A program made the translations under genes and the position numbers. Under the pieces are notes generated by a model. That model saw only the letters and a list, made by a program, of their open reading frames with translations, did no database searches and was not told the DNA's origin. A stretch of DNA of 64,000 bases from positions 1,054,001 to 1,118,000 of the forward strand of contig NZ_JAPEOB010000002.1 in assembly GCF_026341775.1 (NCBI RefSeq), given 5' to 3'. Position 1 is the stretch's first letter. Each line of letters opens with the position of its first letter. The DNA comes from Streptomyces sp. NBC_00654 (GTDB lineage: Bacteria; Actinomycetota; Actinomycetes; Streptomycetales; Streptomycetaceae). Of the stretch, positions 3,487 to 8,043 are shown in pieces.

Positions 3487-4014
3487 CAAGAATCGGTGAG
3501 GTCCTTGAAGCCCTTGAAGTCCTTCATCGTCTCTCCGTGGCCGAGCGGGACCCGGACAGGCCCCTCCGCACGCCCCGGGGACCCAGCTTCTCTTCGCGGG
3601 CGTGTCAGGGGCGTTCAATGCGGCACCCAGATCGGTGTGGACCGTCACCGCGATCAGACGGTTGGCCGTCAGGGTCCGCGCATGGGCAGGACGCCGGTGC
3701 CGCACAGGGCCGGCGGATGGGAGCGGCCCGATACGCGCCGGGCCGGTTCGAAGGCGTCCGACAAGCACGTGACACGCGGGCCGGGCACCTCAGGAGGGCT
3801 CCGCCGGAGCCGGGCAGTCGGGGGATGCGGGCCAGACCTTCCTCTCACGGCTTTCCTCATTGCCAGTCTTAGCAATTACCAAGGTCATCATGCGTGGGTG
3901 AGGGCGCAAGGATGTCCCCATGACGAAGAGTTTTGAGCGGATGCGATGCACACTGCACGCACGACAGCGGACCACGGGCACCCCGGCAGTCCCTTCCGGT
4001 GCGGGGCGGGCGCT
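3487..4014. other. Intergenic region with a regulatory tail
   Basis: Apart from the 13-codon reverse ORF at 3486-3527, I see no convincing gene. The stretch at 3850-3950 is clearly lower in G+C than its surroundings and contains the palindrome at 3859-3876, so it probably holds the promoter and operator of the following ArsR gene. Sequence between about 3550 and 3840 shows neither codon bias nor repeats I can interpret. Confidence 0.45.
3859..3876. promoter_or_regulatory. Candidate ArsR operator palindrome
   Basis: ATTGCCAGTCTTAGCAAT has 5-base arms ATTGC/GCAAT around an 8-base centre, embedded in an AT-rich patch 139 bases upstream of the ArsR start at 4015. ArsR repressors bind such short AT-rich palindromes near their own promoters. 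That this one is the operator is inference from position and symmetry. Confidence 0.4.
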
Positions 4015-4377
4015 GTGAGCGCGCCGCTCTACCAGCTGAAGGCGGAGTTCTTCAAAACCCTCGGCCACCCGGTCCGCATCCGGGTGCTGGAACTCCTCAG
4101 CCGGCGCGAGCACGCGGTCTCCGAAATGCTCAGGGAGGTGGACATCGAAGCGGCCCACCTCTCCCAGCAACTGGCCGTACTGCGCCGCGCCAACCTCGTC
4201 ACCCCCCGCCGAGAGGGCTCGGCCGTCTACTACTCACTGACCAACCCCCAGGTGGCGGAACTGCTGCGGGTCGCGCGCACGATCCTGTCCGGTGTGCTGG
4301 CAGGCCAGGCCGAACTGCTGGCCGACCTCCAGGCCGCCGAACCGGAGACCTCACCCCTGCGGCGCGGGTCGTCGTAG
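4015..4377 (+). CDS. ArsR-family transcriptional regulator
   Basis: 120 residues from the GTG at 4015. The winged helix-turn-helix is evident: LKAEFFKTLGHPVRIRVLELL, the recognition region AAHLSQQLAVLRRANLV and the wing RREGSAVYYSL. The frame is open further upstream (ATG at 3946), but those residues look non-coding and the homologous neighbour at 5227-5583 begins in register with this GTG. No Cys pair in the metal-binding alpha-3 position (no ELCVCDL-like motif), so it does not look like a classical arsenic or cadmium sensor; redox or other ligand sensing is possible. No obvious target gene follows it directly, unlike the copy upstream of SulP. Confidence 0.85.
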   Translation: MSAPLYQLKAEFFKTLGHPVRIRVLELLSRREHAVSEMLREVDIEAAHLSQQLAVLRRANLVTPRREGSAVYYSLTNPQVAELLRVARTILSGVLAGQAELLADLQAAEPETSPLRRGSS

Positions 4378-5226: not shown

Positions 5227-5583
5227 TCACGGCCCAGTCGTCCCGGTCTCGGCGCCGTGCAGCTCGGCCAGCAGGTCCTGTTGCCCGGCCAGCATCACCG
5301 TCAGGATCCGCCGGGCGGCCCGCAGCAGCTCCGCCACGTCCCCGCCCGCCAGCTCGTAGACGACGGTCGAGCCCTTCCGAGTCGCACTCACGATCCCCGA
5401 GCGGCGCAGCACCGCCAGCTGCTGGGAGAGGCTGGAGGGCTCTATCTCGATCGCCGCGAGCAGGTCACGAACCGGGAGCGGCCCCTCCTGCAGCAGCTCC
5501 AGCACCCTGATGCGCACCGGATGACCGAGCATCCGGAAGAACTCCGCCTTCGCCTGGTACAGCGGCACCGTCGTCGTGTTCAC
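5227..5583 (-). CDS. ArsR-family transcriptional regulator
   Basis: 118 residues from GTG at 5583. Winged helix-turn-helix: YQAKAEFFRMLGHPVRIRVL, IEPSSLSQQLAVLRRSGIV and the wing KGSTVVYEL, then a helical tail VMLAGQQDLLAELHGAE. It is clearly a paralogue of the ArsR at 4015-4377 and of the fragment at 1-66. No cysteine metal site is present in the recognition helix. The start overlaps the stop of the preceding small gene (GTGA), so the two form an operon probably controlled by the palindrome at 5822-5841. Confidence 0.88.
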   Translation of the reverse strand: MNTTTVPLYQAKAEFFRMLGHPVRIRVLELLQEGPLPVRDLLAAIEIEPSSLSQQLAVLRRSGIVSATRKGSTVVYELAGGDVAELLRAARRILTVMLAGQQDLLAELHGAETGTTGP

Positions 5584-6493: not shown

Positions 6494-7540
6494 TCACGGT
6501 CGAGTCATCCGCACTTCGGACACTTCGAGCAATCCATCGAGTTCGACCTTCCCCCTGGTCTGGTCCGGACTCACCACGAGGCCGTCCCGGCGCACGATTT
6601 CCAGGAGCCGTTCAGCCAGGGGCAGGACCATATGACGGCCCCAGCATCGTTCGCTCACGTGGCCGAAGGGCAGATAGCCGGGATGAGTATCTCCATCCAG
6701 CTCGTCCCAGCGTTCGGGGTGAAACTCGTCGGGCTCCTCCCAGAGCTTGGGGTCGCGGTGGCTCAGCAGGGGAAGCAGCAGGACGTCGTCTTTCGGGCCG
6801 ATCCGTGCGTCCACGTCCGAGAACTCCGGGGAAGCCACTCGCAAGATATTCCACGACGGGGGAAGCAGTCGGAGTGCCTCAAGGAGGATATTCCGATTCG
6901 ATACGTCGTCGCTGAACGGAGCTCCGAGCCACAGGGCGCTGGTGACAAGCGCGGAGACGGTGAAGCATACGGGTGCCGCCACTCGCCGGTACAGGTACAT
7001 GGCATAGCGCCGGTCACTGTAGTTCGTGGAATCGAGAACGAGAGCGGCAAGTTTTGACAGCGGCACGTCCGGCCCGGGTCTGCCCAACAAAGCGGCACCG
7101 GAGGCGACGGCCGACCAAGTCAGTTTCGGGGTCAACTCCAGTCGGCGGTCGACCAGAACCCGGAATCGCAGACTTTCGTCCCCGAAAACGAGATCCCGCA
7201 GGTAGACATGCGCCACATGCGGCCACCGGCCGGTCAGGTCGACCGCGTCCTCGAGGGGACGTTGCAGCGCGGTTCGTACGTCCGAGCCCACGGCTTGCAT
7301 AAAGGTGGATGCGTCGGCACGGCTGACAAGCCGCTTCTGGACGGGTTTGAAGGTAGGCCTCTCCTCCGCGTTGGCCGGTCTGCTGCGGAGCAGGCTGTCC
7401 ATCAGATCGGCGCCGGATACACCGATCGTGTCGGGCTCCAGACGGAACAGCGACGCATCGCGATAACGGCTCAATAGCTCGTCGAGCCTCGGCGCGAACT
7501 CAGTAACCCGACCGCTCCCGCCGGCGCGGAGCATAGACAT
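6494..7540 (-). CDS. Atypical cytochrome P450, probable atropopeptide-forming enzyme
   Basis: 348 residues from the ATG at 7540 (GGAG seven bases upstream; the longer ATG at 7576 lies inside the hairpin). P450 landmarks: K-helix ExxR as E221-A-L-R224, the PERW element (HPERW, 274-278) and the haem loop FGHVSERCWG with ligand Cys299. It is about 50 residues shorter than usual bacterial P450s, and the I-helix (about 189-205, APVCFTVSALVTSALWL) lacks the acid–alcohol pair that normally aids oxygen activation. It follows the AWYGWI peptide gene on the same strand. Known atropopeptide clusters consist of a peptide and one P450 that cross-links its aromatic side chains; by context I infer that role, with cross-links among W, Y and W of the core. 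Confidence 0.88.
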   Translation of the reverse strand: MSMLRAGGSGRVTEFAPRLDELLSRYRDASLFRLEPDTIGVSGADLMDSLLRSRPANAEERPTFKPVQKRLVSRADASTFMQAVGSDVRTALQRPLEDAVDLTGRWPHVAHVYLRDLVFGDESLRFRVLVDRRLELTPKLTWSAVASGAALLGRPGPDVPLSKLAALVLDSTNYSDRRYAMYLYRRVAAPVCFTVSALVTSALWLGAPFSDDVSNRNILLEALRLLPPSWNILRVASPEFSDVDARIGPKDDVLLLPLLSHRDPKLWEEPDEFHPERWDELDGDTHPGYLPFGHVSERCWGRHMVLPLAERLLEIVRRDGLVVSPDQTRGKVELDGLLEVSEVRMTRP

Positions 7541-7561
7541 GGGTGAACTCCATGGGTAGGC

Positions 7562-7598
7562 GGCTCGCGTCGGCAAGAATTCCTGACCGACGCGAGCC
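7562..7598. terminator. 12-bp hairpin between peptide gene and P450 (likely attenuator)
   Basis: GGCTCGCGTCGG (7562-7573) pairs perfectly with CCGACGCGAGCC (7587-7598) around a 13-base loop. It lies between the stop of the peptide gene (7618) and the P450 start (7540). In RiPP operons such hairpins let most transcripts stop after the precursor, giving far more peptide than enzyme, or protect the short mRNA from 3' decay. There is no U-tract. Confidence 0.75.
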
Positions 7599-7617
7599 CG
7601 GCAAGGAAACTACCTGA

Positions 7618-7695
7618 TTAAATCCAGCCGTACCAGGCGTAAGCCTTGAGACTCTTCTCCGGGCGGAACTTATTGACGAGGCGAACGAGCTTCAT
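7618..7695 (-). CDS. Atropopeptide (tryptorubin-like) RiPP precursor peptide
   Basis: 25 codons, ATG at 7695, stop TAA at 7618-7620. The peptide starts MKLVRLVNKF, contains the basic leader end KSLKAY at residues 14-19 and finishes with AWYGWI at 20-25. From memory, the tryptorubin A precursor has the same architecture, with core AWYIWY directly after a KAY-type leader end; the match in leader, position and aromatic spacing is strong. A perfect GGAGG (reverse strand 7705-7701) sits five bases before the ATG, and a consensus promoter lies 97 bases upstream. The adjacent P450 should cross-link W2, Y3 and W5 of the core, after which leader removal frees the N-terminus. No dedicated protease or exporter is visible nearby, as is common for this family. 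The ORF is too short for standard gene callers. Confidence 0.9.
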   Translation of the reverse strand: MKLVRLVNKFRPEKSLKAYAWYGWI

Positions 7696-7778
7696 GAAAA
7701 CCTCCATGCGTGATGAACGAGATGCTTGTTCGGTGGCAGAAGATATGGATACCGGAAGGAATTCCCGGCATTCAGTTC

Positions 7779-7795
7779 AACTGCCGTGGGCAGTT
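7779..7795. promoter_or_regulatory. Perfect palindrome over the peptide promoter
   Basis: AACTGCC-GTG-GGCAGTT, arms of seven perfectly matched bases. It overlaps the -10 hexamer (7792-7797) and the expected transcription start of the peptide gene. It could be a repressor operator or, as RNA, a 5'-end hairpin stabilising the transcript. Confidence 0.55.
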
Positions 7796-7820
7796 AAGAC
7801 CTGTTCGATGAATGTGTCAA
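7792..7820 (-). promoter_or_regulatory. Consensus promoter of the peptide–P450 operon
   Basis: On the reverse strand TTGACA (7820-7815) is followed after exactly 17 bases by TTAACT (7797-7792), close to the vegetative sigma consensus. The start point would fall near 7785, giving a leader of about 90 bases before the ATG at 7695. Immediately upstream are GTGACTCAC (7821-7829) and a second TGACTCA, which may bind an activator. Confidence 0.65.
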
Positions 7821-7829
7821 GTGACTCAC

Positions 7830-8043
7830 ATCACTGCCTGAATTGACTCATTCACGTTTCGATTTCACAGATATTCACATCTCGGCAAATCGCCCCTAAT
7901 TCATCCATTGGCGCCCAAATATGGACACCCCGGGGAGGGGATGGCCTCGAATGCGGTGATTCGGCCATGCGGCATGACCGGGGGCATCTCCCGCGGGACG
8001 ACTCCGCCGAAGGCGTCCGGTCGCCTGTTCCGACGAGGCCGAC
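7830..8043. other. AT-rich upstream region of the peptide operon
   Basis: This stretch is far richer in A+T than the rest of the window up to about 7920, then returns to normal. It contains no gene. Low G+C around the peptide cluster is compatible with horizontal acquisition or simply with a regulatory region. Confidence 0.4.

Follow-up and report, generated by a model that had tools for sequence, protein, structure and literature searches.

The locus lies on the minus strand of the window (the whole stretch of 64,000 nucleotides that was analysed) and comprises two genes. An open reading frame of 25 codons followed by TAA (7618..7695, minus strand, with the ATG at 7695 and the TAA at 7620-7618) encodes the precursor peptide MKLVRLVNKFRPEKSLKAYAWYGWI. 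Read directly from the DNA, it specifies MKLVRLVNKFRPEKSLKAY-AWYGWI and thus ends in KSLKAY-AWYGWI. The KSLK leader motif occupies residues 14-17 (codons at 7645..7656, minus strand) and the core AWYGWI is encoded at 7621..7638 (minus strand). A ribosome binding site (RBS), GGAGG (7701..7705, minus strand), lies upstream of the ATG with a spacer of five bases. Separated from the precursor by 77 bases, the second gene encodes an atropopeptide-type cytochrome P450 of 348 amino acids (6494..7540, minus strand). Its RBS, GGAG (7548..7551, minus strand), has a spacer of seven bases to the ATG at 7540, which we prefer as start codon to a TTG at 7576, and is located outside a stem-loop that lies between the two genes (7562..7598, minus strand). 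Upstream of the precursor there is a promoter-like element, GTGA-N6-TCAC TTGACA-N17-TTAACT (7792..7834, minus strand). The preliminary description of this DNA had reported the peptide with its leader end and core, its RBS, and its place directly before a P450 gene, and all of these are present in the DNA as reported.

The precursor matched the NCBIfam model NF038372 (tryptorubin_fam) with 52.7 bits, against a cut-off of 33 (E 3.8e-14), and it was the only match to this model at E<=10 across the 9.6-Mb genome. Short frames commonly arise by chance, and 21 of at least 20 amino acids overlap the surrounding 800-base stretch. Yet the probability that the 25-codon frame is such a chance frame beside an ordinary P450 is negligible: it is contradicted by the score to a curated model and by 21 of 101 dereplicated loci that have the identical core in the identical place. 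We therefore ruled it out on the basis of the score, the sole match in the genome and the recurring core. The gene had been called invisible to usual gene callers, which is incorrect, since the curated NCBI model exists and, according to the available text describing it, antiSMASH 8.0 includes an atropopeptide rule (PMC12230676).

The P450 matched the Pfam p450 profile with 48.9 bits. It has the heme Cys299 and the ExxR motif (Glu221 and Arg224), three residues that were invariant in 100 of 100 P450s of the family. Usual yardsticks for P450s are the Gly and the basic residue of the heme motif, and the acid-alcohol pair of the I-helix. Here, the heme stretch reads FGHVSERCWG, where the motif's usual Gly and basic residue are replaced, and no I-helix acid-alcohol pair was seen in the sequence. 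The AlphaFold2 model, made with a 50-sequence alignment, had a mean pLDDT of 87; the 50 best PDB matches listed were all P450s, with modest TM-scores (0.48-0.61, by query length). Used as a query in its own genome, the protein gave four matches, the only full-length one being the gene itself; the other three were C-terminal stretches with 27-39% identity. The P450 shares 91% identity with its counterpart in Streptomyces sp. TSRI0281 and 76% with the sva-locus P450 of Streptomyces varsoviensis. The latter lies in our dataset on the same contig as the published sva locus (L006), and its precursor, read from the DNA, ends in SWYQWL, as published. We rejected the aminopyruvatide P450 ApyO (NCBIfam NF050147) as a family for this protein: the match scored 65.3 bits against a cut-off of 525 and covered residues 217-327 only.

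Atropopeptides are defined by a P450 of a given class, a KSLK-type leader motif, and a Trp at core position 2 (PMC11450843). The P450 of the window is 76% identical to SvaB and shares with it a clade supported at 100/100, the leader carries KSLK in a precursor that passed NF038372, and the core AWYGWI has Trp in second position. The core also has the form xWxxWx which, together with a KSLK leader, defines the bitryptide subgroup (PMC11450843). The assignment to a tryptorubin-like family, proposed in the preliminary description, is thus confirmed by the leader motif, W2, the class of the P450 and the NCBI precursor model. It had been set beforehand that a lack of leader similarity to known precursors would count against this assignment, and the similarity was found. 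We rejected the biarylitides, whose precursors, in the available text of PMC13417212, have five residues encoded by an 18-base gene, versus 25 residues here.

We regard the locus as an intact and ordinary member of a known RiPP family, whose core is apparently uncharacterised and common to other genomes. We found no report of an AWYGWI product in the literature searched, where AWYGWI, AWYGW and WYGWI were met solely in one unrelated paper on insect peptides; a published list of 683 loci may already include AWYGWI. It is very unlikely that the pair of genes makes no product, as a relic that is silent or in decay. In favour of a relic, the sva locus did yield 100-fold less product before the addition of an RBS. 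However, both frames of the window are open, the heme Cys and the ExxR motif are conserved in all 100 P450s, and the core, the RBS and the stem are conserved across species.

To place the locus among its relatives, we used several sets of genomes. A scan of genome contigs with the P450 kept 80 of 122 relatives, and 43 of the 392 genomes of a genus draw had a precursor match (41 above the cut-off). A pattern found the precursor in 124 of 127 loci with a P450 match (duplicates included), the exceptions being L028, L105 and L130, the last of which covers the same locus as L105. The core AWYGWI was present in 26 of these 124 loci. Among the 101 dereplicated loci, 21, from four genera, encode AWYGWI beside the P450, and 23 have a core ending in GWI, GWV or QWL. 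In the maximum-likelihood tree, built with 100 of the 101 rows after dropping a short one, the P450s of these 23 loci form one clade with a support of 100/100, which includes Streptomycetaceae, Pseudonocardiaceae and Nocardiaceae. The KSLK motif and the core residues W2, Y3 and W5 are invariant in the 23 loci of the clade, the Gly is found in 22 and the final Ile in 21. SvaB is sister to the group of the window (100/97), on a long branch that makes its placement less sure.

Given the P450 tree and the core counts, the clade likely has AWYGWI as its main core, with the varsorubin core as a derived variant. This rules out a core unique to this genome. The earlier claim of a new member thus stands for the membership in the family, but not for a core peculiar to the genome, since AWYGWI recurs in others. 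The core is rare at large: it was found in 1 of 396 genomes of a phylum draw (as the exact DNA pattern of the window) and in 6 of the 392 genomes of the genus draw. Class-wide sampling gave 3 of 296 genomes, and a family draw gave 54 matches in 52 of 394 genomes. The 30 loci from the class and family draws (L134-L163) provided 16 new pairs, of which seven belong to the clade, with the cores AWYGWI (4), AWYGWV, AWYGWL and AWYRWV. One of the loci where the pattern found no precursor does encode one: at L105:1501-1578 (minus strand, genome G357), the precursor MKLIHSLKNKIRPEKNLKSYAWYIWY carries KNLK. The published leader motifs are KSLK, RSLK, ESLK, KSRK, KPLK and PSLK (PMC11450843), and KNLK is not among them. 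The same genome also holds an AWYGWI locus (L125).

The closest characterised relative is the varsorubin locus, svaA/svaB. Both loci have a precursor of 25 residues with KSLK, a core of the type xWYxW with an aliphatic last residue, P450s of the same clade, and a stem-loop and an upstream element that are equally placed. They differ in the core (SWYQWL versus AWYGWI), in residue 182 of the P450 (Phe in SvaB, Tyr here), and in the product, which is known there and only predicted here. Tryptorubin A (AWYIWY) and its relatives share with the window the two-gene layout, the KSLK leader, W2, Y3 and W5 of the core, and a P450 of the family. Here, however, core residue 4 is Gly instead of Ile and residue 6 is Ile instead of Tyr, and the leader lacks one residue relative to the common precursors of 26 residues; the AWYIWY loci have Gly182 and their P450s are in a separate clade. 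The scabrirubin system of Embleya scabrispora (ScaA/ScaB) also has an atropopeptide P450, a KSLK leader and a Trp-x-x-Trp bridge, as far as the available texts describe it (PMC11450843, PMC12352619). In contrast to the product expected here, its core TWFIWYS is trimmed to WFIW with a single C-N bond, and ScaB is placed near the root of the family (PMC12352619, available text).

We consider it highly probable that the locus is a minimal two-gene atropopeptide pair of the tryptorubin family that yields a varsorubin-like, cross-linked AWYGWI, with a stem that attenuates transcription and with a role for Tyr182. The P450 would bind the leader of the precursor and place cross-links at W2, Y3 and W5 of the core, and host proteases would then likely free a cage peptide resembling varsorubin, in which the first Ala may be kept or lost. 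In varsorubin B1, which derives from SWYQWL, two Trp residues are joined by a C-C bond, Trp and Tyr by a C-N bond, and Trp and an amide by another C-N bond, with a loss of 4 H (PMC11450843). By analogy, a C-C bond W2-W5 and two C-N bonds, one between W2 and Y3 and one from W5 to a backbone amide, are predicted for AWYGWI, also with a loss of 4 H. The positions W2, Y3 and W5 proposed in the preliminary description agree with those placed in varsorubin B1 by the nearest characterised P450 (PMC11450843), whereas its count of 2 H per cross-link was mistaken, since varsorubin B1 has three new bonds and loses 4 H. From this loss, the product should be sought first at [M+H]+ 791.351, or at 720.314 for the form lacking Ala. 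AWYGWI and WYQWL are isobaric, which is a trap for identification by mass only.

The three bonds are not certain, because the sva P450 also makes single-bond products: it yields varsorubin B2a beside B1 (PMC11450843). The product might thus be simpler: a monocyclic WYGW or WYGWI without a cage, in which a single bond joins the two Trp residues, as it does in scabrirubin or varsorubin B2a. In the available descriptions ScaB also sets single C-N bonds in many precursors (PMC11450843, PMC12352619), and the Gly at core position 4 would add flexibility to the core. Still, the three-bond varsorubin B1 is a product of SvaB, sister to the group of the window, and all 23 clade loci keep Y3, as expected if this residue is bonded. 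We therefore find the single-bond product rather unlikely, and retain the cage as the expected product. The chemistry as such belongs to a family that is already well described; the locus would add an apparently uncharacterised and recurring natural cage peptide, with masses to seek and a biosynthesis that would need two genes only.

The P450s of the clade differ from the others of the family at eleven positions, including 182, using as criterion residues present in at least 95% of the clade and at most 5% outside. Position 182 is the sharpest by side chain and lies within a long helix of the model (174-206), which we have taken as the I-helix. We studied its association with the core in 116 dereplicated pairs (112 resolved together, and L146, L147, L150 and L161 separately). 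All 30 pairs with an aliphatic core residue 6 (Ile, Val or Leu) have an aromatic residue 182 (Tyr in 29, Phe in SvaB), whereas all 86 pairs with an aromatic core residue 6 (Tyr, Phe or Trp) have Gly182. Among the 120 listed database matches and the window, two proteins fit neither class (P0064 with Leu, P0120 with Val). Core position 4 was dropped as a partner of residue 182, because the core AWYRWV (L146) goes with Tyr182, and position 6 fits. Tyr182 likely fills the space taken by the core's Tyr6 in tryptorubin-type enzymes, and would suit the enzymes of the clade to cores with a final Ile, Val or Leu. Since the association rests on one deep split and one Tyr-to-Phe change, residue 182 is a lead for mutagenesis rather than a test. 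It is a possible handle for altering the range of cores that the P450 takes.

The stem-loop between the genes has 12 unbroken Watson-Crick pairs, plus inner pairs, and is proposed as an attenuator from its fold, its conservation and its compensatory changes. Its fold in the window has an energy of -37.4 kcal/mol (z -4.0; one of 200 shuffles was as good). To compare loci, we scored stems with G-T pairs counting half and one mismatch allowed at -2. A score of at least 11 was reached in 23 of 23 clade loci versus 56 of 78 other loci of the family, the remaining 22 of these scoring less. The background was taken from the same loci with GC3-based gene calls made for this analysis. There, codirectional gaps reached this score in 12 of 100 cases, convergent ones in 11 of 35 and divergent ones in 2 of 38, and random windows in 11 of 489. 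Six of the seven later clade loci also scored at least 11 and the seventh 10.5, so that 30 of 30 clade loci reach 10, a score also attained by 21 of 100 codirectional background gaps. When each of the 23 clade loci was shuffled 40 times, none or one of the shuffles equalled its stem score. The AWYRWV locus L146 comes from another genus of the family (genome G1083); it has an Arg between the two ring-forming aromatics, a Tyr182 P450 and a stem score of 16. Outside the clade, L129 (genome G373), with a PSLK-type precursor read by the pattern as only 20 residues (MPLFKKSEPSLKQSAWYIWY), scores 19.5, whereas none of the other eight PSLK loci exceeds 7.5.

All 23 stems fell in one group at the threshold used, and we thus claim compensatory change only within two sub-alignments. 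In the five closest sequences, four pairs changed on both sides and 95.3% of the cells pair, against 34-45% when the strands are slid. For the noursei group, with six sequences, three pairs changed on both sides and 94.9% of the cells pair, against 36-56%. Shuffles equalled the covariation score in 6 of 500 cases for the first set and in 7 of 500 for the second. The count of pairs changed on both sides was equalled in 134 of 500 shuffles of the noursei group, and the number of pair types, equalled in 284 and 241 of 500 shuffles, was above the shuffles in neither set. With only five and six sequences, the covariation is supportive, not conclusive. We rejected a known RNA family for the stem: the one sub-threshold Rfam match (mir-600, 24.6 bits versus 80) was taken as chance, as was one further sub-threshold match elsewhere.

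The stem-loop likely ends most transcripts after the precursor gene, which would give much substrate and little enzyme. It might instead shield the precursor message, as a barrier to 3' decay or as a site of processing, and the net excess of precursor over enzyme would be unchanged; we give this reading an appreciable chance, well short of an even one. In its favour, 22 of 23 clade loci have no T-run after the stem (0-3 T in the ten following bases, two in the window; L022 has six), and in the window the RBS of the P450 is outside the stem. A scan of the window for terminators did not list the stem, which speaks against an attenuator. Against the protective reading, GC-rich stems without T-runs may still terminate transcription in actinomycetes. 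Furthermore, the documented precedents at this place in RiPP loci are attenuators, according to the available text of PMC7113386. There, a terminator-like stem between the precursor gene and the next enzyme gene, as in btmD-btmE of bottromycin and in others, was proposed to set their ratio. Those cases are backed by RNA data and ours, in a two-gene P450 pathway, by conservation.

The likely attenuator would also bear on yields. Placing an RBS before svaB increased the yield 100-fold (PMC11450843), which agrees with an output limited by the P450 and is no proof of the part of the stem. If the stem-loop limits the expression of the P450, it would help explain this gain and suggest how to boost other members of the family. 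The main text of the two core atropopeptide papers, the part covered by our search, does not mention a stem-loop or attenuator between the genes; this feature and residue 182 are points that specialists may not know.

The element upstream of the precursor had been described as a perfect promoter. This is accurate for TTGACA (7820-7815), and the element is conserved in part of the relatives, but 17 bases further its second half is TTAACT (7797-7792), and a sigma-70 scan found no site. The first half fits a -35 box and the second is a poor match to the usual -10. Two overlapping patterns before the precursor, GTGA-N(5-8)-CA-N(0-2)-CTTGAC and CACTTGAC-N(16-18)-TTNACT, occur together in 14 of 23 clade loci, and none of the 78 other loci of the family has either of them. 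Upstream stretches shuffled by single bases had them in a mean of 0.00-0.02 loci, and two similar patterns of the element each have a single occurrence in the genome. Outside the clade, the plain form TTGAC-N17/18-TTHACT is found in 6 of the 78 loci as well. The nine clade loci that lack the element are L010, six of Amycolatopsis and two of Nocardia. The second pattern is present in two of the seven later clade loci and absent in five, which brings the total to 16 of 30. The element may act as a promoter of the precursor.

The clade might be a separate, slowly changing branch in which Tyr182 replaces the last Tyr of the core, the enzyme thereby finishing the mould for an Ile-ending core. One main core in three families, an attenuating stem-loop, and a private promoter in most members from Streptomyces and Kitasatospora would then suggest that the peptide acts as a dedicated signal or on a dedicated target, more than as a weapon that diversifies. 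We offer this reading of the sequence comparisons tentatively, as it is less probable than not.

Finally, we searched for further genes of the pathway among the neighbours of the 23 clade loci, using crude calls of open reading frames of at least 70 amino acids over ~6 kb on each side (less at contig ends). The P450 is the only gene family present in all 23 loci. The next families reach six loci, and one of these partly consists of frames running through the precursor. We thus rejected a larger gene cluster, as no third shared neighbour was seen. A Clp protease gene (PF00574; 8576-9214, plus strand) is divergent from the precursor in the window, its start ~0.9 kb away. It is a candidate for the host protease by nearness only, and the list of twelve gene families shared among the clade loci does not include it. 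Elsewhere in the window, two convergent ArsR-type regulators (PF01022) are encoded ~0.85 kb apart (3946-4377, plus strand, and 5227-5583, minus strand), and positions 63-1778 encode a SulP-type sulfate permease with a STAS domain.
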